Made by a program: the position numbers and the translations under genes
The notes under the pieces: generated by a model
Databases searched by the model: none
Seen by the model: the letters and a program-made list of their open reading frames with translations, nothing else
Told to the model about the DNA's origin: nothing
From: Paucidesulfovibrio gracilis DSM 16080
GTDB taxonomy: Bacteria > Desulfobacterota > Desulfovibrionia > Desulfovibrionales > Desulfovibrionaceae
Assembly: GCF_900167125.1 (NCBI RefSeq)
Contig: NZ_FUYC01000018.1
Location: 1 to 41,833 of the forward strand
DNA length: 41,833 bases
Reading direction: 5' to 3'
Part shown: one piece after another, positions 247-23,888 of the stretch
Layout: each line of letters begins with the position of its first letter
How positions within the stretch are numbered: position 1 is the stretch's first letter

Positions 247-1431
<1,185 letters not shown>

Positions 1432-1432
<1 letters not shown>

Positions 1433-2088
1433 CACGCCCGCCTTACCAGCAACAGCCCGAAACCAAAGCCCTTGGCAGCGCCCACCCCCTGGAAAAGGGC
1501 TTTTTTCAGTAGCGCGGCATCGGAAACCGTGGCAAACCCGCACACATCAATACGCGAAAGCACCACATCCTTGCTGCCGCCCCTGTACCCGAAACGGCTC
1601 TGGTCATAGGCCTCCGCCATGACAGTTTCCTTTTCCAGTGCCAGGCCCAGAGTCTGCTCTCGTTTTTCAAGCCACTGTTCGGCAACACCTTGGGCTATTT
1701 CCGAACGCGGCGGCATTTCAAGCCCCTTGCGCATAAAGCGCTTTCGTTCGTCCTGCACCATGTCCACCCGGACCTGACGCCCGCGCCTGCCGTTGGACGA
1801 AGGTTCACGCCGCTTGATCACGGGATTGAAACGTAGGGAAAACAATACCCTGTCGCCGTTCGTCAGCTTCGGTTCATATTCCTTCACTTCTATCCTGCGC
1901 ACAAAAGGCAAATCCTCGGGCCGCCGCTTCGAAACGGTCAGAAACGAGGAGTCGTCCAGATGGCGATACAGAAAGTCCCGCCGCCGGTCAGGGGAATCCG
2001 AAAAGAGCTTCCAGAGCGCCTGATGTGCCTCGTACACGCCCAGATGCGAGGACCGGGCCATGTCCAGCCGAATCTTACTCATGAACAT
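1432..2088 (-). CDS. cas6e: CRISPR pre-crRNA endoribonuclease Cas6e (CasE)
   Basis: Cas6e cuts the repeat hairpin and stays bound to the crRNA 3' end within Cascade. The 218-residue protein has the family N-terminus MFMSKIRLDMARSSHLGVYE followed by AHQALWKLF. The latter matches the HQGLWHLF block of E. coli CasE with its conserved histidine. The C-terminal glycine-rich loop is GVGAAKGFGFGLL. The first ATG (2088) is preceded by GGAGG with 6-nt spacing, which favours it over the ATG at 2082. The gene overlaps the cas5e end by 14 nt and the cas1 start by 1 nt. Confidence 0.95.
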
Positions 2089-2839
2089 GTTCCACCTCCG
2101 GTTTCCGACGCAGGGTGAAATGGTGCTCCTGCCGCATGGCGAACTGTCGTCGGGCCGAGTTGGTCAACACGTCGCGCACGGAATACACCGTGGAATATTT
2201 TTCCACTTCGGGGACGCCGTGCCCGGCGTCGGACCACACCTGCGAACCCGTGAACAGGGATCCCGCATTACGGCAGTGTTCACCGCATATTTCGTCATAG
2301 CGTTCAAACGCCTCGGCAACGTTGTCTGCGGACAGGATTTCCGGCAGCAGGGGAAAACCCGGCGGGCAGGATTTCCTGCCGAGGTAGAGCGCCAGCCGTG
2401 GCCGGGCCAGCGCGTCCCGCATGTCATCCACGCCGTATCCGGCATCTTTCTCCAGCCACACGCACACCGTGAACGCGGCCCCGGCAAGGTACTCGCGTCG
2501 GGAAAGGATGGTGGTAAGCTGCTCCTTGCAGACCTTGTTCACCAGCTCGTCGCGCCGCGTATGGTACGTCACCTTGCGCACGGAAGGAGGCGTCTGCACC
2601 GTGTGGTAGTCAATCATCCGTTCGCCCGAGGCGTCGGCACGTACGGCAATGCGCGCCGCGCCATGCAGGGTTTCAAGGGCATCCGGAGCGTCGCGCCGGA
2701 TGCCCAGCGCGGCCGCCACCAACCCCATCACCCCGGAACGCCCGGGCCGCCCGGCCGTGGCGCGAACCTCGCCCACGGCCGAGACCGTGCCCCAGCTCTG
2801 CATGGGACCCCGGAGGGTAAAGACAAGATATTCCCTCAT
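2075..2839 (-). CDS. cas5e: Cascade subunit Cas5e (CasD)
   Basis: Cas5e caps the 5' handle of the crRNA in Cascade. The 254-residue protein starts MREYLVFTLRGPMQSWGTVS and continues GRPGRSGVMGLVAAALGI. These are the RAMP-type N-terminal motif and the glycine-rich block of the I-E Cas5 family. Its Shine-Dalgarno sequence (CGGAG, 8 nt before the ATG) lies within the last codons of cas7e, 5 nt upstream. The length is slightly above the E. coli protein (224 residues). Assignment is secure from motif and operon position. Confidence 0.94.
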   Translation of the reverse strand: MREYLVFTLRGPMQSWGTVSAVGEVRATAGRPGRSGVMGLVAAALGIRRDAPDALETLHGAARIAVRADASGERMIDYHTVQTPPSVRKVTYHTRRDELVNKVCKEQLTTILSRREYLAGAAFTVCVWLEKDAGYGVDDMRDALARPRLALYLGRKSCPPGFPLLPEILSADNVAEAFERYDEICGEHCRNAGSLFTGSQVWSDAGHGVPEVEKYSTVYSVRDVLTNSARRQFAMRQEHHFTLRRKPEVEHVHE

Positions 2840-2844
2840 GGTCT

Positions 2845-3960
2845 TTACTCCGCGATGAAGTCACAAAGGTCTTTCAAAGTTTGCCGGCCATGGCCGCAAA
2901 CTATGGATTCGGCCTCCTCGCCCAGTATGGCGTTGAAGCTCTCGCGTTTGGTTTCGAGCGCGGCAAGGGCGTCCGCAAGCATATCCTCGCCGTTCACGGG
3001 CTTGAGAAACGCCTCGGCAAGGGTGCGCGCATGGGCGTCGCCCTTTTCCGCCACGCAATAGGAAGCCACGGCGCGGGAGGCAAAGCTGTTCTGCTTGCCC
3101 GAGGGACTCACCGTGTACACGGCCCGCGCCAACGCTCCAAGAGTGCGGTTGCAAAGGTTCTCATCGCCACCGAGGTTTTCCAGCAGCAGGTCGCGGTCCA
3201 CGCACACATACAGGTAAAAGAGGCCCGCGCCGAACTCAGCCACGCCCATGTGCCCGGCCCCGGGGTCGTCGCGGTTCAGATCGTCCACGGCGGTGAAGAA
3301 ATCGTCCTCCACAACGGCCTTGTGAACGGTCATGGCGTGCGCCACCTGCACAGCGGCCTCCACGTTGTATTCCGGACGGCTGGCCAGCATTCGGCCGAAC
3401 ATGGCCACATCCACGGCATTGGCTTCACCGCGCAAAAGATCCAACGCATCTTTTTCCGGTTCCTTGCCTGTCTCGCGGCAGGTCTCCACCAGCTCGCCTA
3501 CGGCCGCCAGTTCCACGGGGTTCAGGTGGGCCATCTGCTCGGTTTCGAGGGATTCAAGGAAATCCTTTTTCACAAACTTGTCCGCCTTGGCCTTGTATTC
3601 CGCCTTGTTCTTGGCAAACACGCCCGCCACAGCGCGCGCGATCTTGGCGGCGGCCGCCTGCTTCAGGGTTGGCAGATCGCCCGTTGCCTCAATGTCCTCC
3701 ATGCTTTCCGCAAAGGTCACACCGTTTGTCAGGGCAAAATACGCGTATTTGCCGACTTCCTTGGTACGCTTGCCGAAATGATCACACAGCGCGCCCGAGA
3801 TGTGCTCCGAGGTGCGCCATGCGCGTTTCAAGCTCTGGGAGGAAACACGCAACCGCTGGCACCCGCCCATCTTCACGGTCTTGGGGCGTCCGAGGTCGTC
3901 GCGGTTCAGGTTGCTGGCCGGATACGTGGTCAAAACGTGCAGTTGAATGAAACGGGACAT
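2845..3960 (-). CDS. cas7e: Cascade backbone subunit Cas7e (CasC)
   Basis: Cas7e forms the six-copy helical backbone that coats the crRNA spacer. The 371-residue protein begins MSRFIQLHVLTTYPASNLNR, followed by DDLGRPKTVKMGG and QRLRVSSQSLKRAWR. These are diagnostic for the I-E Cas7 family. A strong ribosome site (AAGGAG) precedes the ATG. The gene follows cse2 by 12 nt. The gene is intact and of normal length. Confidence 0.96.
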   Translation of the reverse strand: MSRFIQLHVLTTYPASNLNRDDLGRPKTVKMGGCQRLRVSSQSLKRAWRTSEHISGALCDHFGKRTKEVGKYAYFALTNGVTFAESMEDIEATGDLPTLKQAAAAKIARAVAGVFAKNKAEYKAKADKFVKKDFLESLETEQMAHLNPVELAAVGELVETCRETGKEPEKDALDLLRGEANAVDVAMFGRMLASRPEYNVEAAVQVAHAMTVHKAVVEDDFFTAVDDLNRDDPGAGHMGVAEFGAGLFYLYVCVDRDLLLENLGGDENLCNRTLGALARAVYTVSPSGKQNSFASRAVASYCVAEKGDAHARTLAEAFLKPVNGEDMLADALAALETKRESFNAILGEEAESIVCGHGRQTLKDLCDFIAE

Positions 3961-3972
3961 AATATGATCTCC

Positions 3973-4476
3973 TTATGCTTTGCTTCGGTTGGGGTAGTAT
4001 TCCCTGGCCCAGTTCATCCGGGCCTGATCGTTCCAGTACATGGTATGCCGGATCAACCCGCCGAGGCTGGCCACGCCGCCGCACATACCCACGAACCGCA
4101 CCAACATGCGGTACAATTCATCGTATTCACCGTCCTCCACGGCCAGCAGCTTACGGAAACGTACGTCGCGCATGTCCGGAGAGCCCTTGCCCTCCCGAGC
4201 GAAAACAGCGGCGAAATGCCCCTTGTGCAAGTGCCGGGCATTGGCCAACACACCGGCCGCAAGAGCCAACCGTTCCAGATCAGGCTCGCCCAGTTCAAAC
4301 GAAGCTAATTCCTCCACCAGTCCGTTGCGATAGGCCGGGGACACATACACCTCGGTGCGACTTTTGGCCCGGCGCAGACCGGCCCGCTGACCACGGTCTT
4401 TCTCCAGACCATGCCACCACGATTCCACGGCCTTCCAGAAGCCGTTGTCGTTGAATGCCTGATCCAATTTCATCAT
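3973..4476 (-). CDS. cse2: Cascade small subunit Cse2 (CasB)
   Basis: Cse2 dimerises along the Cascade belly and stabilises the R-loop. The 167-residue protein starts MMKLDQAFNDNGFWKAVESW. It contains the arginine-rich region and the C-terminal MCGGVASLGGLIRHTMYWND block expected of CasB proteins, and it ends near NWAREYYP. Its ATG overlaps the cse1 stop in ATGA (4473-4476), which implies coupled translation. The sequence is poorly conserved in this family generally, so the call rests on length, the small motifs and the position between cse1 and cas7e. Confidence 0.9.
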   Translation of the reverse strand: MMKLDQAFNDNGFWKAVESWWHGLEKDRGQRAGLRRAKSRTEVYVSPAYRNGLVEELASFELGEPDLERLALAAGVLANARHLHKGHFAAVFAREGKGSPDMRDVRFRKLLAVEDGEYDELYRMLVRFVGMCGGVASLGGLIRHTMYWNDQARMNWAREYYPNRSKA

Positions 4477-6041
4477 GCCTCCCTAGGCGGATACATTTCC
4501 ATGCCGCGCAAATACTTGATATTGTAATTCCTCATGCGCTTGTGCGCTTCCACGCAGCGCTCCATGCGCTCTGGCGGTATGCCGAACCGTTCGGCGTTTT
4601 CCTCGAACAACTTTGAAGACTCGACCAAGAGCACCCTGCCCCACACAAGACGCAGCTCGTCCCGTTCGGACAGGCTCGCGTCGCGATCTGGCAAGGCAGC
4701 AAGCTGGGCCGCGTTTTCATAAAAAGCCGCTTCGGTGCGGCCCCAGAACATGTTGTTGGCGTTCTCGAAAAGACTCATGTCGGTCTTGGCCTGATTCTTT
4801 CCAGCATCATGCACCAGCGCGTCCTTAAGCGCGCCCAGCAGGTTGCGCCGCACCTGATCCGCAGCGGCCACCATGCCGCGCACTTCCGCGACGAAGGTCA
4901 CTTCGTCCCCGAGCAGGACAAAGGATGGGAAGACATGCTCGCACCATTGCCGAGCTTTTGCATTGTCCATGTCATACCCGGCCACGCCGATCCGGCTGCC
5001 GCGCCTCCCGGCATTGCGTACGCACTGGGCCGCGTGCATGTGCCGCTTGGCGTCCGGCTCGCCATAGACAACGCCCAGCCAGTTGCTGTAGGCGTCTATG
5101 TTGCTGCGCCCTTTGATGGACAGGGGCGGTTTGCCCTGTTCCATGGTGTAGGGCGTGAGCGGATGCACCCATTCCGGGCCGTAGTTGTAGCCGTTGGGAC
5201 GGGAAAGGAACTCGCGCACGGCCAGACCATGTTCCCTGCCGCAGACATGGCAGGGTCCTTGGGCCTCTTCCTCACGCAGCACAATGCGCCGGGGCATGCC
5301 CCAGAACACGTGCAGGGGATGCATATCCTGCGGATGCACCTGTTCATTCTTGTCGCTGGTGCGGGTGGGCGCGGCCCATGCATACACGCGAGAAGCGAGC
5401 ACCCCCCTGTCCGAAGTGGGTTCGATGCTCCCCCGGCCCTTGACCGGAGCCACGTTCAGCCACAGGCTTTGCCACAGGGTGTCTCCCGCGCACAGGGTCG
5501 AAAGCGGACCGCCCCCGCGCATGGACGTGCGATTGCCGCGTCCGCCGGCCGGGGCAAAGGCCTGCAAGGTGAACAGGGCGGCCGCGGCGCAGGCCGGACA
5601 CATGGCCTCCACCTGCCCGCGTTTGATAAAAAAGTCCTTATTTTCACGCAGGGTGATGCCGCCGGGCTGCTCAATGAGCAATGCCCCGATCCCGTTGCTC
5701 ACGGGCTTGTCCATTTCATTCATGGTCAGGTCTTGCATGAACCGGGGGCGCTCGCCAAAAAGGTTGAAGAACTCCCGGTGGGCCGCAAAGGCCTCGCGTA
5801 GTTTCTTTTGGCTCGGCGGGGAACCGAGCATTCGGTCCCGGGTGCGCATGTCCGCAGGCGCAAACGCGGTCTGTAACAGGCCCACAAGGAATTCCATGAG
5901 CGCGGCCCGGAAATCCGCCCGTTGCGGATTTAAGCCTACGGGCGGATTGTCGCCCACGATTTCCCATGGCCGTATCCATTCGGTCCGCCCGTCCCCAAAA
6001 AGTGCGGGCAGCCACGGCTCATCCAATAAATTGTAGTTCAT
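4473..6041 (-). CDS. cse1: Cascade large subunit Cse1/Cas8e (CasA)
   Basis: Cse1 recognises the PAM and recruits Cas3. The 522-residue protein begins MNYNLLDEPWLPALF, the standard Cse1 N-terminus. Two cysteine pairs, CPAC and CHVC, fit the zinc-binding part of the family. A glycine-rich GRGNRTSMRGGGPLSTL loop follows the first pair. Start 6041 was chosen over an in-frame ATG four codons upstream (6053) because GGAG lies 8 nt before it. A gap of about 145 bp separates it from cas3 and is rich in A/T. It probably holds the Cascade operon promoter, though I could not define one with confidence. Confidence 0.94.
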   Translation of the reverse strand: MNYNLLDEPWLPALFGDGRTEWIRPWEIVGDNPPVGLNPQRADFRAALMEFLVGLLQTAFAPADMRTRDRMLGSPPSQKKLREAFAAHREFFNLFGERPRFMQDLTMNEMDKPVSNGIGALLIEQPGGITLRENKDFFIKRGQVEAMCPACAAAALFTLQAFAPAGGRGNRTSMRGGGPLSTLCAGDTLWQSLWLNVAPVKGRGSIEPTSDRGVLASRVYAWAAPTRTSDKNEQVHPQDMHPLHVFWGMPRRIVLREEEAQGPCHVCGREHGLAVREFLSRPNGYNYGPEWVHPLTPYTMEQGKPPLSIKGRSNIDAYSNWLGVVYGEPDAKRHMHAAQCVRNAGRRGSRIGVAGYDMDNAKARQWCEHVFPSFVLLGDEVTFVAEVRGMVAAADQVRRNLLGALKDALVHDAGKNQAKTDMSLFENANNMFWGRTEAAFYENAAQLAALPDRDASLSERDELRLVWGRVLLVESSKLFEENAERFGIPPERMERCVEAHKRMRNYNIKYLRGMEMYPPREA

Positions 6042-6186
6042 GGTTTTCTCCATATATATTTGGAATACGATACCATATACAAAAAAAAGCCCCCTAACCA
6101 CCCTCATATAAAGTGGATCAGCGGACTCGACAATAACGAAGAACTAATACAATTATCGAAAAAAACACCAACTGCAGGGGATTTAA

Positions 6187-8808
6187 TCAGTCAACAACCA
6201 GACCGCACCGCTGATCATAGCGGACGGTTCTGGTCACGCCCCTGGCGTCCTTGCCAGAACCAGACCACACGCCGGGCGAAATTTCGCACAGGGGCAGGCA
6301 GACGCACCACTCGCCCTTGTCCGGCATGGACTCCATGAGCGAGGACACGTCGCTAGCGCAGGATTGCGGAGCATGGGCGGACGAAAGAAGGCGCACGGGT
6401 ACGCGCACCTCGGAACGCACGCAGTTGTCCATGCTCGCGCCCCTGCCGTCGTCAGACCACAGGCGCACCCCGTCATCCTCCACGCGCAACAGCCGCAGAC
6501 CATGGCTCGGCTCGCCCAACCGCGTGGGAGCGGCTACGTCGTCGCCCCACGGCGAATCCTCCAGCGAATAACCCCCGGAAAAATCGAGGGAACCGAAACA
6601 GGCCACGGCCTTGTCCGCGCATTGCTTGCCAAAGGCGTCCATTTCCCGCCCGTCCATGCTATGCGGGGCGCACAGAACACCGTCCCCATAGCAGCCCTCT
6701 ACCAATTCCCGTGCGTCGCGAGGCAACACGACGGCCCCCTTGGAGCACAAAATCCGGGCCGTACGCCACAAAACGGCCGGACGCGGGTACACATACTGCC
6801 CCTTTTCGAACATGGTCCCATACCAGTCTCCGGGCGCATCGTCCGCAGGTTCGGGCATGAGCACCCGCATCACTGCGGTTTCATAGCCGACCGGACGGGA
6901 ACGCTCGTGCCTGTGGCACCGTCCGGCCCGCTGGATCATCAACTCCATGGGCGCTAGATCGCTCAGCAAAACATCAAAATCCAAATCAAGGGACTGCTCG
7001 ACCACCTGCGAGGCAATCAGGATTTTCTCGGCCCGGTCGGACGCTACACTTTCCTTGCCGAACACGCGCAACACTTCCCGTTCGATATCGGCCCTGTCGG
7101 CGCCAGTGAACCGGGAATGAAACACCAGCACCCTGTCAGCGGGCAGGCCGTGTTCCTCAACCAGCAGCCGCGCCGCTTCCAGCACGTCCACCACAGTATT
7201 TCGAATCCAGCAGGCGCAGGCACCGGCCTTAAAAGCCCGGCGCAATGCGTCGAACATGCCGGATTCGTCATATACCGACTCCACGGCCACGTTCAGCGTG
7301 CGGCGCGTGGCAACGGGAATGGATTCTCCCTTCTCATCCGTCAGCCTTGTCATGAGCGGAAAGGACACGGAAAACGGGTCCGCATCCTGTTCGGGTTCGG
7401 GCACGTTTTTCCCGGCAAGGGCGCGGCCATTGCGCCACGCCTCGGCCAGAGTCCGGCGCAGCTCACTCGTCATGGTGGCCGAGAGCAGCACGGCGCTACC
7501 GCCCATGGCGGCATGAAACCGCAGCAGATTTGCTAGCAGTTCACCGGTGTAAACGTCATAGGAATGCACCTCGTCCACCACCAGCACGGAACGGCACAAA
7601 CCCAGCAACCGCAGGGACTGATGTTTGGCCCCAAGCACGCCCAGCAGAGCCTGATCGATGGTACCCACACCGCACGCAGCCAGCAGAGCCTTTTTGCGAC
7701 TATCCGCCAGCCAGTGGGCGCTAACCGCGCCCCCTTCGTCGTTGTCTGCTCCCTGCCGCGCGCAAAGGCCGGACATGTATGTTTCATTGAGAAAGGTGCC
7801 GCCGTGCGCGAGGGCGAGAAAAATATCCTGATCGAACAAGGCCCGGTATCCTTGGGCGAGGCGTTCATACATGGCGTTTGCCGTGGCCATGGTGGGCAGC
7901 CCCACGTACAGGCCCGATGCAAGGCCAAAGCGCATGGAACGGTGCGCAGCCAGCAGGGCCGCCTCGGTCTTGCCCCCGCCGGTCAGATCCTCAATGATGA
8001 ACATTTCCGGCCCGATGGGTTCCGGCAGATCGAGAACGGCCTGCTGCATATGGCTTGGCGCGCATCCCTTCAAATGGGGCAGCAGGTCCGCAAACTCACA
8101 GCTATCCGTGGCGTGCGCCCCGACCAGCCCGAGTGCGTCCACGGCATCGGCCGCCCGCCCCTGCGCAACCGGCCAATAGGCTTCAAAACAATCCCACTTG
8201 GAAACGGGCTTGAACCAATGCTCGTTGGAGCCGATCCAATCCGCAAGGATGATCAGCCCGGCCGTGAACCACGACAATGGCTCAAGCTCCACCTCTCGGA
8301 ACTGTTCATATGATTCGCAAAGAAAGCGCGCCGCCACCTCGCGCACGAACGCTTCGGCATCAGCCTCCACGGAAAACGCGGAATGCCCCAAATCGCAGGT
8401 ATCGCAGGGTGATCCGTGATGGCAGAATGCGGCCGTCAACAACGGTTTCAGGGAGTATTCATCCGGCAGGTCAAGATAGTCCCATGGCCATATTTTTTCC
8501 CAGAGAGCAAGCCCGTATTCCGTGTGATGGTGCGCATACCCGCCGCGACGGTGTCCGAGCTTTTCCCCCAACGAGGTCAAACGCTGAAAGCCGGGATGGA
8601 ACTTGCCCAGATCGTGACACGCGGCAAGAAAAAGAACCAAGGAACGCACATGGCCGGTCGGCATGGGGGCAAGATCAGCCATGCGAGCCGCCCACACGGG
8701 GTTCGCGTCCAGCAACCGTTCGGCCACGGCCGCGACGTCCAGACAATGATGCCCCAGATGATGCCAGTCCCCATCCAAAAACGTCTTTCCCCAATAATCG
8801 TAACGCAC
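6187..8808 (-). CDS. cas3: CRISPR effector nuclease-helicase Cas3 (HD + SF2)
   Basis: Cas3 is recruited by Cascade to nick and degrade invading DNA. The 873-residue protein is one chain with an N-terminal HD nuclease (HHLGHHCLD near residue 16; CHDLGKFHPGFQ near 64). A superfamily 2 helicase follows, with Walker A GGGKTE (277-282), DEVH (412-415), SATMTSE (443-449) and an arginine finger block QRAGRCHRH. Nothing is truncated and all catalytic motifs are present. It starts with GTG, preceded by GGGAGG at 7-nt spacing. Being separated from cse1 by a gap, cas3 may have its own promoter in the region right of 8808. Confidence 0.96.
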   Translation of the reverse strand: MRYDYWGKTFLDGDWHHLGHHCLDVAAVAERLLDANPVWAARMADLAPMPTGHVRSLVLFLAACHDLGKFHPGFQRLTSLGEKLGHRRGGYAHHHTEYGLALWEKIWPWDYLDLPDEYSLKPLLTAAFCHHGSPCDTCDLGHSAFSVEADAEAFVREVAARFLCESYEQFREVELEPLSWFTAGLIILADWIGSNEHWFKPVSKWDCFEAYWPVAQGRAADAVDALGLVGAHATDSCEFADLLPHLKGCAPSHMQQAVLDLPEPIGPEMFIIEDLTGGGKTEAALLAAHRSMRFGLASGLYVGLPTMATANAMYERLAQGYRALFDQDIFLALAHGGTFLNETYMSGLCARQGADNDEGGAVSAHWLADSRKKALLAACGVGTIDQALLGVLGAKHQSLRLLGLCRSVLVVDEVHSYDVYTGELLANLLRFHAAMGGSAVLLSATMTSELRRTLAEAWRNGRALAGKNVPEPEQDADPFSVSFPLMTRLTDEKGESIPVATRRTLNVAVESVYDESGMFDALRRAFKAGACACWIRNTVVDVLEAARLLVEEHGLPADRVLVFHSRFTGADRADIEREVLRVFGKESVASDRAEKILIASQVVEQSLDLDFDVLLSDLAPMELMIQRAGRCHRHERSRPVGYETAVMRVLMPEPADDAPGDWYGTMFEKGQYVYPRPAVLWRTARILCSKGAVVLPRDARELVEGCYGDGVLCAPHSMDGREMDAFGKQCADKAVACFGSLDFSGGYSLEDSPWGDDVAAPTRLGEPSHGLRLLRVEDDGVRLWSDDGRGASMDNCVRSEVRVPVRLLSSAHAPQSCASDVSSLMESMPDKGEWCVCLPLCEISPGVWSGSGKDARGVTRTVRYDQRCGLVVD

Positions 8809-16680: not shown

Positions 16681-16716
16681 CGGCAGGAACGCTTTTTACA
16701 GGTTCCTGCCGTTTTT
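16681..16716 (+). terminator. Rho-independent terminator
   Basis: The stem CGGCAGGAAC/GTTCCTGCCG with an 11-nt loop is followed by TTTTT. It ends the 16265-16645 gene right at the convergent kinase stop codon. Confidence 0.9.
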
Positions 16717-19097
16717 CATTCTTCCTCAGCCTGCGAAGCACCATTCATTGGCAGAACAAACACAAACGCGGCACCGGTCCCCTCCCCTGCGGATTCCGCC
16801 CAGATTTTGCCGCCGTGATTTTCCACGATACGTCGCACCAAAGCGAGTCCGAGTCCTGTTCCCTGTTCCTGACTGTCCAGTTGATGAAACAGTCCAAACA
16901 CGGTTTCCAAATATTCGGCCTTGATGCCGCGTCCATTGTCCTGCACACGCACCAACAGTTCGTCCTGCTGCGGGCGAACTTCGCTAGAAACAACGATACG
17001 GAGAGGCGCATCCACACGGCGGAACTTGGCGGCATTGGAAAACAAATTAAGAAAAACCTGAACCATTCTTGGTCGGTCACATAAAATCTCCGGCAAACTG
17101 TCCAACCCTTCAACCGTTCCTTGACCTTCTTCCAATTGCCCCTGCGATAGCTCTTTCGCTTCTTCAGCCACTTCTCCCAACGAGACCCTGACCAAGGGAT
17201 TGTCCATCCGTCCGACGCGGGAAAGTTCCAGCAATTCCCGCAATAATTTCTCCATACGATCGGTGGCATTGTTGATGCGGGCCAAATCAGCGGCCACCCG
17301 GTCCGGATCACCCAATTCCAAATCCCGTTCCAACAGTCCAAGGAATCCCTTGATCGTAATAATCGGACTTTTGAGGTCATGTGAAACAGTGTATGTAAAC
17401 CGTTCCAACTCATCATTTTTGGCTTCAAGCCGCTCCACCAGTCGCTGCAATTCACGCTCATGCCGGCGACGTTCGCTCACGTCCCGCACCACGCCCTCTA
17501 CAGCAATAGGCTGACCTTTCCCGTCAAGCACAAGCCGGGAACTTGTTTCCACGGGAACGGCTTGCCCGTTTTTATGGCGAAGCAAACTACTGAATGACTG
17601 CAATACTCCCTGCTGCATAAGCTGCTCCAAGAGTGCACGCCGATCCTCGGGACGATAGTAAAAAGTCGAAGCGACATCCTTCCCTTCCACTTCAGAAAAC
17701 TTTTCATACCCAAGCAGTTCATACATCCGTCTGTTAGACATAACCAACCGGCCGGACAGATCCGCCCGATAGTAACCGTCCATCATGTTTTCCAGGATCT
17801 CCCGTAGCGTTTCTTCACTCCGGCGAAGATCCTCCTCCATTTCCCGGCGATGTGTGACATCGGAATGCACCCCAGCCATGCGCCGGATAGTCCCGGACGC
17901 ATCCCGAAGGCACGTCCCACGCCCAAGAATCCATCGCCAGGAACCGTCCCGGTGTAACATTCGATATTCCACCGCAAAAGAATCGGTGTTTCGATCAAAC
18001 AGCGCCTGATTGGCTTCCATCACCCGGTCGTAGTCCTCCGGATGAATACGAGATTTCCATTCATCCAGATCATTGGCCAATTCATGGTCGCCATATCCGA
18101 TGATTTCCTTCCAGCGTGGAGAAAAATAAACCTGATCCGTTTCCCGGTCCCAATCCCAAATCCCGTCGTTGGCACCAAGCACTGCAAGCTGGTAACGCTC
18201 CTCGCTTCTGGTCAACGACTCCTTCGCAAAGCCGACACGTTGCAGCAATTCCCTGTTACGCAATCCCAAAAACAACATGGCCAAAAGCAAGACGGCTGCA
18301 AGTGTGGCGATCCATTCCCATGGCAACCGCTTAAGGGCATTTTGTCCGATCCAACGTTGTACAATGGACTCAAGTCTCGCTCGGGGCACTGCATCCGCAT
18401 GTTGCTGCAACAGGGACAGCGTGGCCCCATCCCCTTTGCGTACGGCGGGATGACAGCCTTCGGAATACAGTGGATCCGGAGAATAGCGAAAGGCATCGCC
18501 GGAAGCATGGCGGGAAAGGAAAAAGGTGATGACGGGTTGGTCGCCGACCATGACACGGATATCTTTGCTTATGGCGGCCCGCACCATGGCTTCGTGATTG
18601 GAAAACAAGGCAAGACGCAGATACGGAGCCTTTTCACGTAAGAATGTGCTGGCATAATCGCCCTGCACGACTCCCACACGGAAACCTCGCAAATCTGCAA
18701 GAGAACGGACTCCAAGCACGCTTTCATGAAAAAAAACAGCACCACGAATTGAATAGTACGGCTGTCCGTAATCAAAAAACTGCTCGCGAGCCGATGTACG
18801 AAACAGACCCGAAAGGACATCTGCTTCGCCCGCCTTAACCATCCGCAAAGCTTCAAGCCAAGGCTCAAGCCGATATTCTATGGGGATACCGGTTTGTTTT
18901 GACCATTCCTTCCAGTAATCCACGAAGATTCCCCGCGGCGTACCGTTATCCCCTACATATTCAAACGGTGGGTAGTTCTCATCCCCCACGATGATCAGCG
19001 GCCCTGCCTCGCCCTGCCCCCCTGCCATGGCCGATGGAAGAAAGCAGAGTCCCCCCAAAAGGAGCAACATGCTCATGACGCTGCGAATATATGTCAT
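16716..19097 (-). CDS. Periplasmic-binding, PAS-containing sensor histidine kinase
   Basis: A 793-residue membrane sensor. An N-terminal signal segment (MSMLLLLGGLCFLPSAMA) precedes a periplasmic solute-binding domain of the SBP_bac_3 type (NYPPFEYVGDNGTPRG; EPWLEALRMVKAGEADVLSG). One transmembrane helix follows (IATLAAVLLLAMLFLG). Then come two PAS/PAC units, a HisKA helix (TVSHDLKSPIITIKGF, phospho-acceptor His) and an HATPase domain (NLFSNAAKF, DNGRGI, GTGLGLALV). Start 19097 is preceded by GAGGGGA. It should sense an amino acid or similar ligand, or use the domain as a modified receptor. No response regulator is adjacent. It is divergent from the exported protein gene at 19350. Confidence 0.9.
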   Translation of the reverse strand: MTYIRSVMSMLLLLGGLCFLPSAMAGGQGEAGPLIIVGDENYPPFEYVGDNGTPRGIFVDYWKEWSKQTGIPIEYRLEPWLEALRMVKAGEADVLSGLFRTSAREQFFDYGQPYYSIRGAVFFHESVLGVRSLADLRGFRVGVVQGDYASTFLREKAPYLRLALFSNHEAMVRAAISKDIRVMVGDQPVITFFLSRHASGDAFRYSPDPLYSEGCHPAVRKGDGATLSLLQQHADAVPRARLESIVQRWIGQNALKRLPWEWIATLAAVLLLAMLFLGLRNRELLQRVGFAKESLTRSEERYQLAVLGANDGIWDWDRETDQVYFSPRWKEIIGYGDHELANDLDEWKSRIHPEDYDRVMEANQALFDRNTDSFAVEYRMLHRDGSWRWILGRGTCLRDASGTIRRMAGVHSDVTHRREMEEDLRRSEETLREILENMMDGYYRADLSGRLVMSNRRMYELLGYEKFSEVEGKDVASTFYYRPEDRRALLEQLMQQGVLQSFSSLLRHKNGQAVPVETSSRLVLDGKGQPIAVEGVVRDVSERRRHERELQRLVERLEAKNDELERFTYTVSHDLKSPIITIKGFLGLLERDLELGDPDRVAADLARINNATDRMEKLLRELLELSRVGRMDNPLVRVSLGEVAEEAKELSQGQLEEGQGTVEGLDSLPEILCDRPRMVQVFLNLFSNAAKFRRVDAPLRIVVSSEVRPQQDELLVRVQDNGRGIKAEYLETVFGLFHQLDSQEQGTGLGLALVRRIVENHGGKIWAESAGEGTGAAFVFVLPMNGASQAEEE

Positions 19098-19153
19098 TGA
19101 AAATCCCCTCATCTCCATATCTACACCACGCCATGGGAAAAAGCGCAACCATC

Positions 19154-19349: not shown

Positions 19350-20039
19350 ATGATTCGCAAATTCACAGCATTTATCCTTTTGGCCATGTTATCCTTGGCC
19401 GCCCTGCCTGCACAGGCCGAGCTGTGGACCTTTGAAGACCAGTACACTCACTGGAACGGGTGGGGTACACACCACGAAAACAAAAAAGACGTCATTGGCA
19501 TTCCGGACTTTACCGACGGAACCGCCACCGTGGTCAACAACACGCTGCAATCCGTTCGCTTCTTCTTTTCCGCCGGAAGCTCGGAAAGCCTTTACAACCA
19601 ACTTGGCAGCGGCGACTTGTTCGTCAACACGGACAACGACAGTTCCTGGAATTATCTGGTCCGCCTCAACAATGACCTCACCGCCGACGTTTACAACTTC
19701 AACACATCCTACACGGATCGCGGCGCATATTATCTGGGCCATGCCGACGGCGACTACCGTGACTACCACCCCGCCTGGGGCAAAGTCTGGGGTGATGCGC
19801 TCTACAGTGGAACGTGGTCCGGAAAGCCCGAATTTCCCGGCGAAGGGAATGTGGGAGTCATTTCCATCGCAGGTTTGAACATCGACTTTGACAAGCTCTC
19901 CCTGAGCTATACGGTGAGCTGCGCCAATGACATCATGGGTGCGGACACATTTTCCAAGACGCCGATCCCCGGAGCCGTGTGGCTGCTCGGTTCCGGTCTC
20001 CTGGGACTCATCGGACTGCGCCGTCGCCAGAAAGGATAA
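19350..20039 (+). CDS. Exported protein with a PEP-CTERM-like sorting tail
   Basis: A 229-residue secreted protein. The signal peptide is MIRKFTAFILLAMLSLAALP with likely cleavage after AQA (residue 23). The middle is polar, aromatic and rich in Asp, Asn and Tyr. The C-terminus has PGAVWLLGSGLLGL, more hydrophobic residues and a basic RRRQKG end. This is the tripartite pattern (short motif, membrane helix, basic tail) recognised by exosortase-type systems. The ribosome site is AGGGGG. The gene is driven by a sigma-54 promoter and ended by a terminator. No exosortase is in the window. The function of the mature domain is unknown. Confidence 0.8.
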   Translation: MIRKFTAFILLAMLSLAALPAQAELWTFEDQYTHWNGWGTHHENKKDVIGIPDFTDGTATVVNNTLQSVRFFFSAGSSESLYNQLGSGDLFVNTDNDSSWNYLVRLNNDLTADVYNFNTSYTDRGAYYLGHADGDYRDYHPAWGKVWGDALYSGTWSGKPEFPGEGNVGVISIAGLNIDFDKLSLSYTVSCANDIMGADTFSKTPIPGAVWLLGSGLLGLIGLRRRQKG

Positions 20040-20217: not shown

Positions 20218-23200
20218 TTAAATCCCAGCCCCTATGCCGTCATTTTTTCCCTCTCCGATCATCCGGGACCGGGGATCAGGTCGGTCCAGATCGACCGCGT
20301 GGGGAAGACCGCGGACCATGCGATCCAAATGGCGCAGATACCATTTGTAACGCAAAAGATAGAACGACAGCCCCTTGGAAAAACGCCGCCCCACAATTCC
20401 ATCGACGAAGAGCTTGCTCACTTCCCGTTCATTGAGGAGAATACGTTGCGATTCTAGGAAAACCGCCCGTTCCTCACCAGTCATGGCCGCGACCTTCACG
20501 CGGAGTGCGCTGGCGGCGCGGGGTTGGTACATATACATATACAACAAATCCAAAGCGTTCACGATCATAACCTTGTCCAAAGAACTCCGGGCCGTGCGGA
20601 CTTCACTGAAGAAATAGTCCGGTCGCTGCAACATTTCCAAGACATCACGTCGAGGGAAAAGTATCTCCAATGAAGAATACGTTTGAAAGACTTGATGAAG
20701 CTTTGCAGTATAATCCCAAAGCCGCATGGAAATATTGTTTTTCCGGTCGGCCAGTCCCTCGATAAAGCCAGCCACACAGTCGGAAGCCAGCTTGGAGATG
20801 ACCGCAGCCCAGCGTTGCAACACACCGTTCACATCGGGTGTTCCAAGAAAGCCCAAAGCCAACCCCACAACGGAGTTGAACAACACCGCAATGGGGATGG
20901 ACAGCACACTACGGAAAAAATTACCAAATGCGGCGCTTCGCGGAAGTCCCCGGAACAAATTGTGGCTCGTGATATATATTCCATTGGTCAGCGCCATGAT
21001 GGTATATAGCAACAATGGGCTGGTTGTGGTGTTGACCCCGAACATCCCATCCAAAACAACGCTCTTGGTCAGCCAATCCAGCAACGGCACGGAAAAGCCA
21101 GTAAAAAGCAGCGAATCGGAAATTCGGCTCCAGCTTACATAGTCATTCCAACGCAACAACGGGGACCGACGGAATCCGCCCCCTCCGAGCACGGACTGGA
21201 TCACATTGCGAAAACCGGTGATTCCAAACCAAATAAACGCTCCAAGGTAGGCCAGCACCCACCAGTCCTTTGTCAGCGCAAATGTCAAAAAAGCAGGAAT
21301 AAACCCCACCAAGACCTTAAGCGAATTCATCCAACGGCTATTCAGGTGCCGCCAATTCGGCGACTGGTTTTGGTGCTCTTTTTCACAAGGAGGTACGATT
21401 TCAAAATCCGTTTCCCTGCGTGGCCCTCCCAACGTTGCAACGTTCCCCTGCTCCTCCATGGATACGGTCCATCGAACCGGCTTCCAGTCCTCCTTACGCA
21501 GAAACGTCAAAGCAGAGAGCAACGGAACCCCACGGACCAATTGAAACCATCGCCGCCCCATAGGGCTGACCGCCTCGCTCGGGATGCATGTAATCCGTCG
21601 CCACGATTCCACAGTAACCGGCAGAAATTCACGCTTATCGGCCCGCACGAGCAAATTCCGTTGCGCACGACGGGGTAAAGTTGCTGAAACAACCAATCCC
21701 ATGCCGCGCGTAAGCACGGAACGTCCTGTGGACCGACTCCCCATGCTCGCCTTTAACGGTGCGTGGCGATAGAGCGTTCGAAACGCGTTAATATTGCCAA
21801 GTATTTTGTTCAACTTATCCAGCAGAACATTCCCATCAATCCCCCCCTGCTCCAAGCTCCGGATGCGATCCAACAAAATGCGCTTCAAGGCCATGGGTCC
21901 GGGGTCATTGATGGCGAGCCGCAACTTGTTCAAAGCCACACTCTGCGCGGAGCGACTGTCCACATCCCCCTTGAGATTGAAAATCTCCATATGCGTGACA
22001 TCGCCACGACAATCGTACAGCAGTTCAAGAACCTGCTCCACGCCAAGGCCGTCCGGAACCAAAGTTACCCGGTTCAAGGAATGCAAACTCCTGATGCGTT
22101 GCATCAGAGCGCGGGGCGTCAGGGCGATCAACTCCGGTAAATCTTCCGCTTCCGGGTCGCCCGGATCGGATAATTCTGGGTTACGCTCAGGGATGAGATA
22201 CTCTTCAACTATCTCCTCAGCACAAAGGCTTTCGAGCCGCTCCTGCATTGCGCGGACCTTTTCCATGTCTGGACAATTGGGATCGCACAAGCACTGTGCC
22301 AACGTTGCGTGATGTTCCCGCAGGAAAGGAATCAACCCTTCCAGAATAAAGGTTCCCAAGTGCAACAGTGAAGGTTGGCCCATGCCCACAAAGCTGCAAA
22401 AATCAACCTCATCCAATTCCGGCGCGGCGATGCCCAGACTTTCGCCGAGATCAAAACGATGCCGTTGGTTGTAGGCCCGAAGAGCTTCAAAAACATAAGC
22501 GTGCTGGTAATTGGAAACTTTGCGGCCGTCGGACAAGAACTGTTGCATGTCCGGACGACGGAGAAAGGCAAGAAAATCCTGCGCATCGCCAAACCCTCGA
22601 GGCTCCCAGACAAAACGTGCGAACCGGTCCCGGTAACGGGCCGAAAGATCCACGCCGATATGGACAGAAATATCCATAATCTTAGCGGCCTGTAGCAATT
22701 CATCCGCCACACGTGGATCAACGTAATTATAATAAATGACACTCAGACGCCGGATACCCTTGATCCAGGCATCCATGATCAGATGGGTGGGGGATTTACG
22801 CCCTTTGGTGTTCGCGTCATGCACATGGTCATCAAAACTGATCTGATTCCATTCTTCCGGCATTTCAACCAGATGATACTTGCGCAGCTGGCGCAAGACC
22901 ATACGTGGTTTACCTGTGGTAACAGTTCGAAACTCGTGGGCCAGGGTCAATTGCTTAGCGGTATCACCCTTGGCCCGGACCAACTCCTTCATAATCTGCA
23001 AAAGAACCCTGGCCGCATTGATCCGCAACGGTCCCTTGGCCGTGGTCAAGACCTCGTCTCGAGCGGCGCGCAGCGCTTCCAAGCGTTCCGTAGCCTTGCC
23101 CTGCTCCAGTGAACCCAACAAATGGATCACCGCGTATGCCACGCGCAATCCTCGGGAAGCTGCCATCTCCTTAATGCCGTGCGGGTGCAGATAGGGAGCC

Positions 23201-23349
23201 AGCAATTTTTTCAAATCCCAATGCGGCTTATCCCGATCCAACACATCGTTTACAATGGCAAGAAGAACCTCGTCTCTACGATCAAAAAACAAGGAGGAAG
23301 TCCGCTCCGCAGCAACAACCGGGAGGTGTTCCGAAGTCGTTTCCGGCAT
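20218..23349 (-). CDS. Large unknown protein: PHP-like N-terminal region and membrane C-terminal region
   Basis: A 1043-residue protein from the ATG at 23349 (GGAG upstream). An ATG at 23364 lacks a ribosome site. Around residues 173-236 the pattern DDHVH, KSPTHLIMDAWIKG and VHIGVDLSARYRDR recalls a PHP metal-hydrolase domain (DxHxH start and GVE-S strand). The TDH motif is missing, so activity is doubtful. A later REHHATLAQC holds another histidine pair. Roughly residues 680-860 contain four or more hydrophobic segments (for example GFIPAFLTFAL, SIPIAVLFNSVVGLALGFLG) with a glycine-rich SVLGGGGF loop. The C-terminal 180 residues are charged and helical. It is transcribed alone. The family is not recognised and the PHP link is an inference. 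Confidence 0.75.
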   Translation of the reverse strand: MPETTSEHLPVVAAERTSSLFFDRRDEVLLAIVNDVLDRDKPHWDLKKLLAPYLHPHGIKEMAASRGLRVAYAVIHLLGSLEQGKATERLEALRAARDEVLTTAKGPLRINAARVLLQIMKELVRAKGDTAKQLTLAHEFRTVTTGKPRMVLRQLRKYHLVEMPEEWNQISFDDHVHDANTKGRKSPTHLIMDAWIKGIRRLSVIYYNYVDPRVADELLQAAKIMDISVHIGVDLSARYRDRFARFVWEPRGFGDAQDFLAFLRRPDMQQFLSDGRKVSNYQHAYVFEALRAYNQRHRFDLGESLGIAAPELDEVDFCSFVGMGQPSLLHLGTFILEGLIPFLREHHATLAQCLCDPNCPDMEKVRAMQERLESLCAEEIVEEYLIPERNPELSDPGDPEAEDLPELIALTPRALMQRIRSLHSLNRVTLVPDGLGVEQVLELLYDCRGDVTHMEIFNLKGDVDSRSAQSVALNKLRLAINDPGPMALKRILLDRIRSLEQGGIDGNVLLDKLNKILGNINAFRTLYRHAPLKASMGSRSTGRSVLTRGMGLVVSATLPRRAQRNLLVRADKREFLPVTVESWRRITCIPSEAVSPMGRRWFQLVRGVPLLSALTFLRKEDWKPVRWTVSMEEQGNVATLGGPRRETDFEIVPPCEKEHQNQSPNWRHLNSRWMNSLKVLVGFIPAFLTFALTKDWWVLAYLGAFIWFGITGFRNVIQSVLGGGGFRRSPLLRWNDYVSWSRISDSLLFTGFSVPLLDWLTKSVVLDGMFGVNTTTSPLLLYTIMALTNGIYITSHNLFRGLPRSAAFGNFFRSVLSIPIAVLFNSVVGLALGFLGTPDVNGVLQRWAAVISKLASDCVAGFIEGLADRKNNISMRLWDYTAKLHQVFQTYSSLEILFPRRDVLEMLQRPDYFFSEVRTARSSLDKVMIVNALDLLYMYMYQPRAASALRVKVAAMTGEERAVFLESQRILLNEREVSKLFVDGIVGRRFSKGLSFYLLRYKWYLRHLDRMVRGLPHAVDLDRPDPRSRMIGEGKNDGIGAGI

Positions 23350-23888
23350 TTTGCTATACTCCATATGGCGGCGTTAAGAAGAGTGGCTTTCAATGACCAT
23401 CCTTGGACTGCAACGCAGGGTGGGCCTTCAAAAAAAGCACTGATACGAAATGACGCCGCCAAACGCATTTCACCAAAACAGATCATTATTCCGAAAGATT
23501 ATTCACTACGAACAGAACGCCGCCGTTTTGAACGACACATCATGTTACGAATGTGTTACAAAAATCCCATGCCATGGCCCGATTTGCCGCACAAGGAAAA
23601 TCATGTCCAACCGACGGTGTAGGAATAGGCTAACAGATAGCGATAAAAAGGAAAGCACTCCACAAGCGACCCTTCCCAATCCAGGGTGCTTCGTTGAAGC
23701 GCTTATTGAAGAACAACACACGTAAGTCTTTTCAAATCATGTCAGACAACGCGCCCCCGGCACACTACAAAACCAATAGGGAAGCGTTCTCCCGAGGGCA
23801 AAGGCAAAGTGGAACGACAGATATCGAATTGAACCGGATCGTCTGGCCTTCCTTCGCAGGCGAAAGCGGCCACACACGCAACAATTCC
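23350..23888. other. Gene-free stretch
   Basis: About 540 bp without a credible gene. Short open frames have no ribosome site and unlikely composition. It should hold the promoter of the large minus-strand gene ending at 20218. I see no clear promoter, repeat or RNA gene. Confidence 0.5.

Follow-up and report, generated by a model that had tools for sequence, protein, structure and literature searches.

This report concerns a gene of Paucidesulfovibrio gracilis DSM 16080 that encodes a large membrane protein with a predicted PHP domain. The window, meaning the whole stretch of DNA that was analysed, is 41,833 nucleotides long and comprises an entire contig (NZ_FUYC01000018.1; C18) of a 3.18 Mb genome. 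A preliminary description, made from the letters alone, had placed an open reading frame (ORF) of 1043 residues at positions 20218-23349, and this frame was recovered on the minus strand with coordinates that are probably its true ends. If translation began instead at an upstream ATG in the same frame, at 23364, the product would have 1048 residues (20218..23364) and the ATG at 23349 would be codon 6; all residue numbers in this text count from that upstream ATG. We favour 23349 as the probable start because a GGAG motif precedes it by 9 nt and because the alignment with the same-genus homolog begins at residue 6. The ORF reads as a real gene rather than a chance frame, since third-position changes dominate in the comparison with this homolog and since the gene is carried by 46 of 59 related genomes, its own included. 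Differences from the same-genus homolog at codon positions 1, 2 and 3 are 0.21, 0.13 and 0.56, and the NG86 estimates are 0.18 for dN and 4.6 for dS, the latter being saturated.

An alignment of 78 homologs (A1), which also underlies the conservation counts given below, was used as input for an AlphaFold model with a mean predicted local distance difference test score (pLDDT) of 87.3 and a predicted template modelling score (pTM) of 0.87. The model divides the protein into an N-terminal helical domain, a PHP-fold domain with a helical insert, a membrane domain and a C-terminal helical domain (Table 1). Residues 25-165 contain 17 invariant columns, and long helices run across residues 676-902. 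The preliminary description had read the end of the protein as a charged tail; in the model this consists of an ordered helical domain (905-1019) and a low-confidence end.

Table 1. Features of the gene, its product and its surroundings in the window (residues counted from the ATG at 23364; fractions refer to the 78 homologs).
Feature	Residues	Position	Strand	Basis or remark
Whole gene		20218..23349	-	1043 aa from ATG at 23349; nearest homolog aligned from residue 6
GGAG, possible ribosome-binding site		23359..23362	-	9 nt before ATG at 23349; read from sequence
N-terminal helical domain	27-165	22870..23286	-	model secondary structure
PHP-fold domain, helical insert ~261-430	174-632	21469..22845	-	Foldseek, VIA, hhalign
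HVHD, PHP motif I HxH	180-183	22816..22827	-	H180 73/78, V181 78/78, H182 77/78, D183 78/78
KGRK	187-190	22795..22806	-	K187 75/78, G188 78/78, R189 77/78, K190 78/78
YYNY, replacing TDH motif	211-214	22723..22734	-	Y212 77/78, N213 74/78
GVD	237-239	22648..22656	-	D239 aligned at RNase AM Glu72
QPSLLH, PHP insert	330-335	22360..22377	-	adjoins RNase AM-like GRPH motif in profile alignment
GSRST, taken as GSDFH counterpart	542-546	21727..21741	-	assignment from the order of strands and similarity of motifs, not profile
Membrane domain, six model helices	676-874	20743..21339	-	models, hydropathy, positive-inside charges, conserved polar residues
C-terminal helical domain	905-1019	20308..20652	-	models
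Sensor kinase		16716..19148	-	SBP_bac_3 domain, PAS domains, HisKA/HATPase
229-aa protein, VPLPA/PEP-CTERM-like sorting tail		19350..20039	+	TIGR03370 E 0.0016 for the tail, below cut-off
Stand-alone PilZ domain, 96 aa		23889..24179	-	Pfam E 8e-6
Rubredoxin, 51 aa		24324..24476	+	Pfam E 1.6e-20
ORF, 287 aa		33957..34820	-	no Pfam/NCBIfam match at limits used
ORF, 279 aa		35038..35877	-	no Pfam/NCBIfam match at limits used

The family and its distribution

Searches with the single protein returned nothing above cut-off from Pfam (E up to 10; two weak matches, DUF6622 at 0.022 and ABC_tran_CTD at 0.19) or NCBIfam (best PRK13661, 0.0038), and the best PDB matches had E values of 1.2 by sequence and 0.42 by profile. 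The Pfam PHP family (PF02811) was absent from the single-protein matches at E up to 10, and PHP was not among the 11 Pfam families that the 79 domain sequences matched when E values up to 0.1 were allowed. Search listings of open-licence PMC papers contained no description of such a fusion or gene. This is a membrane-protein family without a name in Pfam or NCBIfam; the PHP fold itself is known.

The gene occurs in 32 of 297 genomes sampled across the phylum, its own included; there were initially 33 matches, and one (G120) was dropped as an ordinary PHP protein. A species-wide scan matched 483 coding stretches. Titles among the best 80 of these were Desulfobacterota/deltaproteobacterial or of the Syntrophales/Syntrophobacter type save for six, five titled only 'Proteobacteria' and one 'Alphaproteobacteria'. 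Two full-length copies each were present in three genomes of the phylum sample, and G247 holds two full-length copies plus a third detected with the membrane profile. Two copies each were also found in G010, G017 and G027 among the 59 related genomes. At one locus (L049) the two copies lie on opposite strands with their 3′ ends facing (279-3386, plus; 3416-6538, minus). A distant subfamily comprises proteins from G218, G527, G499, G463 and G465 and a fragment in G380; the other four full proteins are 60-65% identical to that of G218, and identity to the window protein is 23-34%, depending on the stretch compared.

Two suggestions about the gene were set aside. A role as defence, plasmid or phage cargo is unsupported, since PADLOC returned zero matches for the protein and the plasmid and phage collections gave zero matches at E 1e-5. 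The gene is also not an exact marker of sulfate reducers: dsrA scores above cut-off in 27 of the 32 carriers and also in 116 of the 265 non-carriers, an association with a Fisher p of 1e-5 that is uncorrected for kinship and based on hand counts from lists. The five carriers below the dsrA cut-off are four members of a single family (f38) and G292, in which only partial dsrA matches were found (216 of 402 positions).

The PHP domain and its metal site

From two short motifs the preliminary description had guessed at kinship with PHP metal hydrolases, and it proposed checking this by profile search and structure model. The guess proved right: profile comparison and model point to PHP proteins, and the refuting outcomes of a clear match to an unrelated family or a model with another fold were not observed. 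Foldseek placed the domain among PHP proteins (E 3e-5): the top four PDB matches are PHP hydrolases, three of them with E under 0.001. VIA gave Z 18.9 to both 3e0f and 3o0f (for 3e0f, root-mean-square deviation 2.6 over 253 aligned positions of residues 174-632), 17.7 to RNase AM (9etk) and to 2yb1, and 15.1 to the RNase AM PHP domain 7ug9. DNA polymerase PHP domains followed at 11.6-14.0 and three further rows at 10.4-10.8, including PsfC (10.4), which we take to be a PHP-type protein; with PsfC so counted, the first row beyond PHP-type proteins has Z 6.6. In the model, residues 174-632 adopt the distorted beta/alpha barrel typical of PHP proteins, and the closest structures are RNase AM, CV1693 and BAD_1165.

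Profile comparison supports the same kinship. The family profile was aligned by hhalign to a second alignment (A4) of ten RNase AM-like PHP proteins from 11 same-family genomes plus the PHP protein L112, the label 'RNase AM-like' having been assigned by length and motifs. The match reached P 6.9e-7 over 136 columns; the first halves alone gave 1.7e-10 and mismatched halves 0.015 or worse. The weakest match of the phylum search (E 9.6e-4) is itself a Pfam PHP protein, aligned at the HxH region (residues 177-248). By profile similarity, the family shares common descent with the RNase AM/CV1693 group.

In RNase AM the alpha metal is held by His13, Glu72 and Asp255, the beta metal by Glu72, His83 and His198, and the gamma metal by Asp20, His45 and His257, as set out in PMC9410882. 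The window protein carries the DxHxH-like start that the preliminary description had noticed (D178-D-H180-V-H182-D183), followed by the similarly recognised GV(D/E)LS strand at residues 237-241, where position 239 is E in 71 homologs, S in five and D in two, D being the residue of the window protein. The TDH of motif II is missing, as had also been said. The site reads YYN[Y/H/F], and the D-H of TDH falls opposite N213-Y214 after a 2-residue gap in hhalign. Position 214, the likely place of His45, is Y in 40, H in 19 and F in 17 of the homologs.

Most of the remaining ligands appear to be replaced. In the hhalign register the place of Asp20 is taken by K187, lysine in 75 of 78 homologs. At position 544, the place of Asp255, we counted D in 68, G in eight and R in two, the two being the window protein and its same-genus homolog. 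The window protein has T546 at the place of His257, which is T, S or A in all 78 and His in none; near the places of His83 and His198 no column has His in more than 7 of the 78. Q330 and H335 are invariant. As read from the alignment, the five proteins of the distant subfamily retain HVHD, GRK, the third-strand E, Q-S-H and GMG; the K187 place is E in four of them and A in one, and the D544 place is A in all five. The three-metal site of the RNase AM/CV1693 group was not found as a whole in the window family. Judged from these alignments, the metal site is mostly remodelled: HxH and usually the Glu and Asp are kept, and three further histidines are gone.

These replacements bear on whether the protein could be an active membrane-anchored phosphoesterase, in which an alpha site (H180, H182, E239, D544), together with K187 standing in for the gamma metal, would hydrolyse a phosphoester in a membrane-bound or soluble substrate, with the membrane part presenting substrate at the inner leaflet. 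The full alpha set, with D allowed for E, is kept in 63 of 78 homologs and HxH in nearly all, the closest folds are phosphoesterases, and a separate RNase AM-like gene in the same genome (L133, again labelled by length and motifs) would leave this protein free to take a new substrate. Against this stand the loss of the beta and gamma ligands and the changes at the D20 and H257 places in nearly all homologs. In RNase AM, changes at D20, E72 or D255/H257 disrupt activity, according to PMC9410882. The alpha set is also missing in 15 of 78, including the window protein with its R544, while the remainder of the protein is kept. We regard this enzyme as somewhat unlikely. Seven of the ten rows without D544 also differ at another alpha position: H180R occurs in five rows, all with G544, and both R544 rows have D239. 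The alpha positions thus seem to change together partly, not strictly.

The membrane part

The preliminary description had expected four or more membrane helices, which was a fair estimate. The model has six, as does one built for residues 664-1022 by themselves (pLDDT 88.6, pTM 0.78), and five of them are picked out by hydropathy when a 19-residue mean above 1.2 is required. Helices 3 and 6 barely pass, and helix 4 (783-805) falls below the threshold with a mean of 0.73. Per homolog, the mean number of K+R is 3.5 before the first transmembrane helix (TM1), then 0.8, 2.8, 0.03, 0.9 and 0.01 in the successive loops and 4.0 after TM6, where D+E also average 4.0. We expect the PHP domain to be cytosolic because this alternating pattern fits six helices with both ends of the protein inside, which is the probable topology.

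Conserved polar residues gather on one side of the membrane part. With polar residues conserved at 95% or more in the helices considered, TM6 cut at 874 by choice and helix ends and topology as predicted, 18 of 20 sit in the halves predicted to be cytoplasmic (Fisher p 1.7e-4; when conservation is disregarded, polar residues divide 30 to 17 between cytoplasmic and other halves). These are T716, R719, N720, Q723, R747, S751, T755, S758, N794, Y797, H801, N802, R805, R818, S861, D862, E869 and D873; the remaining two, S857 and K858, adjoin the middle of TM6. Many of the conserved polar residues persist in the distant subfamily. Invariant columns are most numerous here, with 30 in residues 664-902.

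No convincing structural relative of this part emerged. Foldseek with residues 664-1022 gave a best E of 0.81 in the PDB and 0.53 in a viral structure library, and the best VIA score (Z 6.0) lies below the level that the tool calls meaningful. ATR-ATRIP (6.0), UCP1 (5.2), XPR1 (4.5-4.8) and the glutamate/aspartate transporters (4.1-5.4) were set aside as too weak; what these structures share with the membrane and C-terminal part is no more than a general helix-bundle likeness. For residues 664-1022, fourteen Pfam families were weakly matched, each in at most 7 of 79 members, with a best E of 1.2e-4 for the pneumovirus nucleocapsid; Pneumo_ncap and Sigma70_r4_2 (7/79 each) were taken as chance matches on helical stretches. 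A helical fold for lipid head groups, the lipocone superfamily, has motifs of its own, as described in PMC12419801. The membrane profile matched 32 of 297 genomes, and these are exactly the genomes matched with the whole protein once G120 is set aside there. Every match listed lies in a frame of 954-1234 aa apart from that in G332, whose gene is divided between contigs, and no stand-alone membrane domain without the PHP part was seen in this sample.

The weight of conservation in the membrane part invites the view that the PHP domain is a dead scaffold, as in the DNA polymerase III of Escherichia coli, and that the membrane domain alone functions in transport, lipid handling or signalling. There the PHP domain has lost its metals yet is structurally important, according to PMC3666897, which provides a precedent. 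Invariant columns are most numerous in the membrane part, its conserved polar residues are predicted toward the cytoplasmic side and the later parts of the PHP domain are less conserved. However, the best-conserved stretch of the protein is residues 174-260, which holds HVHD, GRK, YYN and GxE (mean top-residue fraction 0.77, versus 0.71 for the membrane part). Such conservation would be needless for a mere scaffold, and we consider this explanation quite unlikely.

Gene neighbourhood and proposed function

No conserved operon was seen, and neighbours vary from genome to genome. At its own locus the gene has a PilZ gene about 520 bp upstream and a histidine kinase gene downstream on the same strand. 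An opposite-strand gene, adjacent to and convergent with it, lies between and encodes the 229-aa protein of Table 1. The rubredoxin gene stands between the PilZ and HDOD genes. Among 76 same-strand neighbours within 350 bp, the most frequently recurring kinds, by raw count, were six PAS, four GDPD, four response regulator and three GGDEF genes.

The PAS, regulator and GGDEF neighbours, together with the histidine kinase, GGDEF, PilZ, HDOD and CheD genes nearby in the window, could indicate a sensor of a two-component or cyclic di-GMP pathway that relays a ligand to neighbouring kinases or response regulators. Such genes are, however, common in these genomes, the neighbours differ between genomes, and Pfam and NCBIfam searches of the protein revealed no output domain. 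We judge this very improbable.

A second group of neighbours concerns phosphate. A GDPD gene is adjacent on the same strand downstream at L032, L034, L041 and L048 and upstream at L113 (L164 is the same place), and another lies 5 kb away on the opposite strand at L106. L013, L065, L072 and L097 have a PiT phosphate transporter gene on the same strand, separated from the family member by PhoU_div at L065, and at L092 such a gene lies at a distance of 2 kb. GDPD or phosphate-transporter neighbours at ten loci hint at a phosphate or phospholipid link, and would also be compatible with phosphoester turnover by an active enzyme. At L113 (4425-8060) the end of the GDPD gene directly precedes a distant family member, a close pair that suggests one transcript.

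On balance, we favour ligand binding over an active one-metal phosphoesterase, a pure scaffold and a regulator-linked sensor. This reading, to which we give a little less than an even chance, is that the PHP domain, lying in the cytosol, binds some phosphorylated ligand and acts jointly with the membrane part, three-metal catalysis being slight or absent. The protein would be an inner-membrane protein whose cytosolic PHP domain belongs to the RNase AM/CV1693 branch; its two terminal domains are helical, and its membrane domain has about six helices. Its pocket would have lost most three-metal ligands and retained the conserved HVHD, GRK, YYN, Q..S..H, S-T-G and GMG, and may bind a lipid head group, a nucleotide or a glycerophosphodiester, using one metal at most. 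Binding could then serve or control the membrane domain, whose invariant polar residues are predicted near the cytoplasmic face. Computation supplies the fold, the kinship, the ligand replacement in nearly all homologs, the pocket conservation, the topology trend, the polar cluster and the fusion in every genome seen; ligand binding, its coupling to the membrane part and a role connected with phosphate or phospholipid are inferred. Of the two roles offered by the preliminary description, a phosphatase-like sensor or an inactive binding domain, we lean to binding because the closest relative of known structure has metal ligands that are mostly replaced here; the candidate alpha site in 63 homologs keeps the first partly alive.

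Several observations pull the other way. That alpha set is intact in most homologs, which makes some catalysis possible, L004, L095 and L106 (G544) retain H180 and E239, and D544 is retained in all five S239 rows. The C-terminal PHP halves could not be aligned to the RNase AM-like profile (hhalign 0.049), and the register there (GSDST with GSDFH, GMG with the GRG run, EIFN with IEAYY) was set by strand order and likeness. Beyond the first stretch the PHP domain is less conserved than the membrane part's 0.71, with mean top-residue fractions of 0.53 (261-428), 0.59 (429-570) and 0.40 (571-660). The neighbour families searched in 161 loci, a set that includes repeats and many short flanks, were picked after the neighbourhoods had been viewed, and most loci lack a phosphate-related neighbour. 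Other genes recur as well: a glutaredoxin gene at L063 and L078, and a CNNM-type gene adjacent at L086, L094 and L186 and 3.4 kb off at L057. At the three adjacent loci the CNNM-type gene is directly downstream on the same strand, outside the phosphate theme.

A bolder form of the ligand-binding reading, which we hold to be unlikely, describes a membrane machine in which a PHP fold has turned into a phospho-ligand receptor, with the lysine and other residues replacing the catalytic metals, permanently fused to an unclassified helical membrane domain that has a conserved polar site at its cytoplasmic leaflet. In sulfate reducers and syntrophs alike, the receptor would drive or gate a membrane reaction such as the transport or flipping of phospholipids or chemistry on their head groups. 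The family is common in Desulfobacterota, well conserved and about 1000 residues long, and has no Pfam or NCBIfam match. It offers a testable case of an enzyme fold that has lost most metal ligands and conserved much of its pocket inside a membrane protein, beside a membrane domain whose conserved site is evident and for which no structure gives a convincing match.

The closest known systems are RNase AM (YciV), CV1693 and BAD_1165, which share with the window family the PHP barrel with helical insert (Z 17.7-18.9) and the HxH, GxE and GSD-like motifs. By eye, the Q..S..H of the window family also falls close to the GRPH motif in the insert of RNase AM-like proteins, and its GMG stands opposite a GRG run in these. 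In contrast to these proteins, the window family has most ligands of the three-metal site replaced and its members are not found by Pfam PHP, and the window protein is more than three times longer, adding two helical domains and a membrane domain. In E. coli DNA polymerase III, the PHP domain of the alpha subunit (Z 13.4-14.0) resembles that of the family in having lost metal-coordinating residues, as stated in PMC3666897. That domain lies within a replicative polymerase, whereas the domain of the window family is fused to a membrane domain and carries a different conserved set of replacements.

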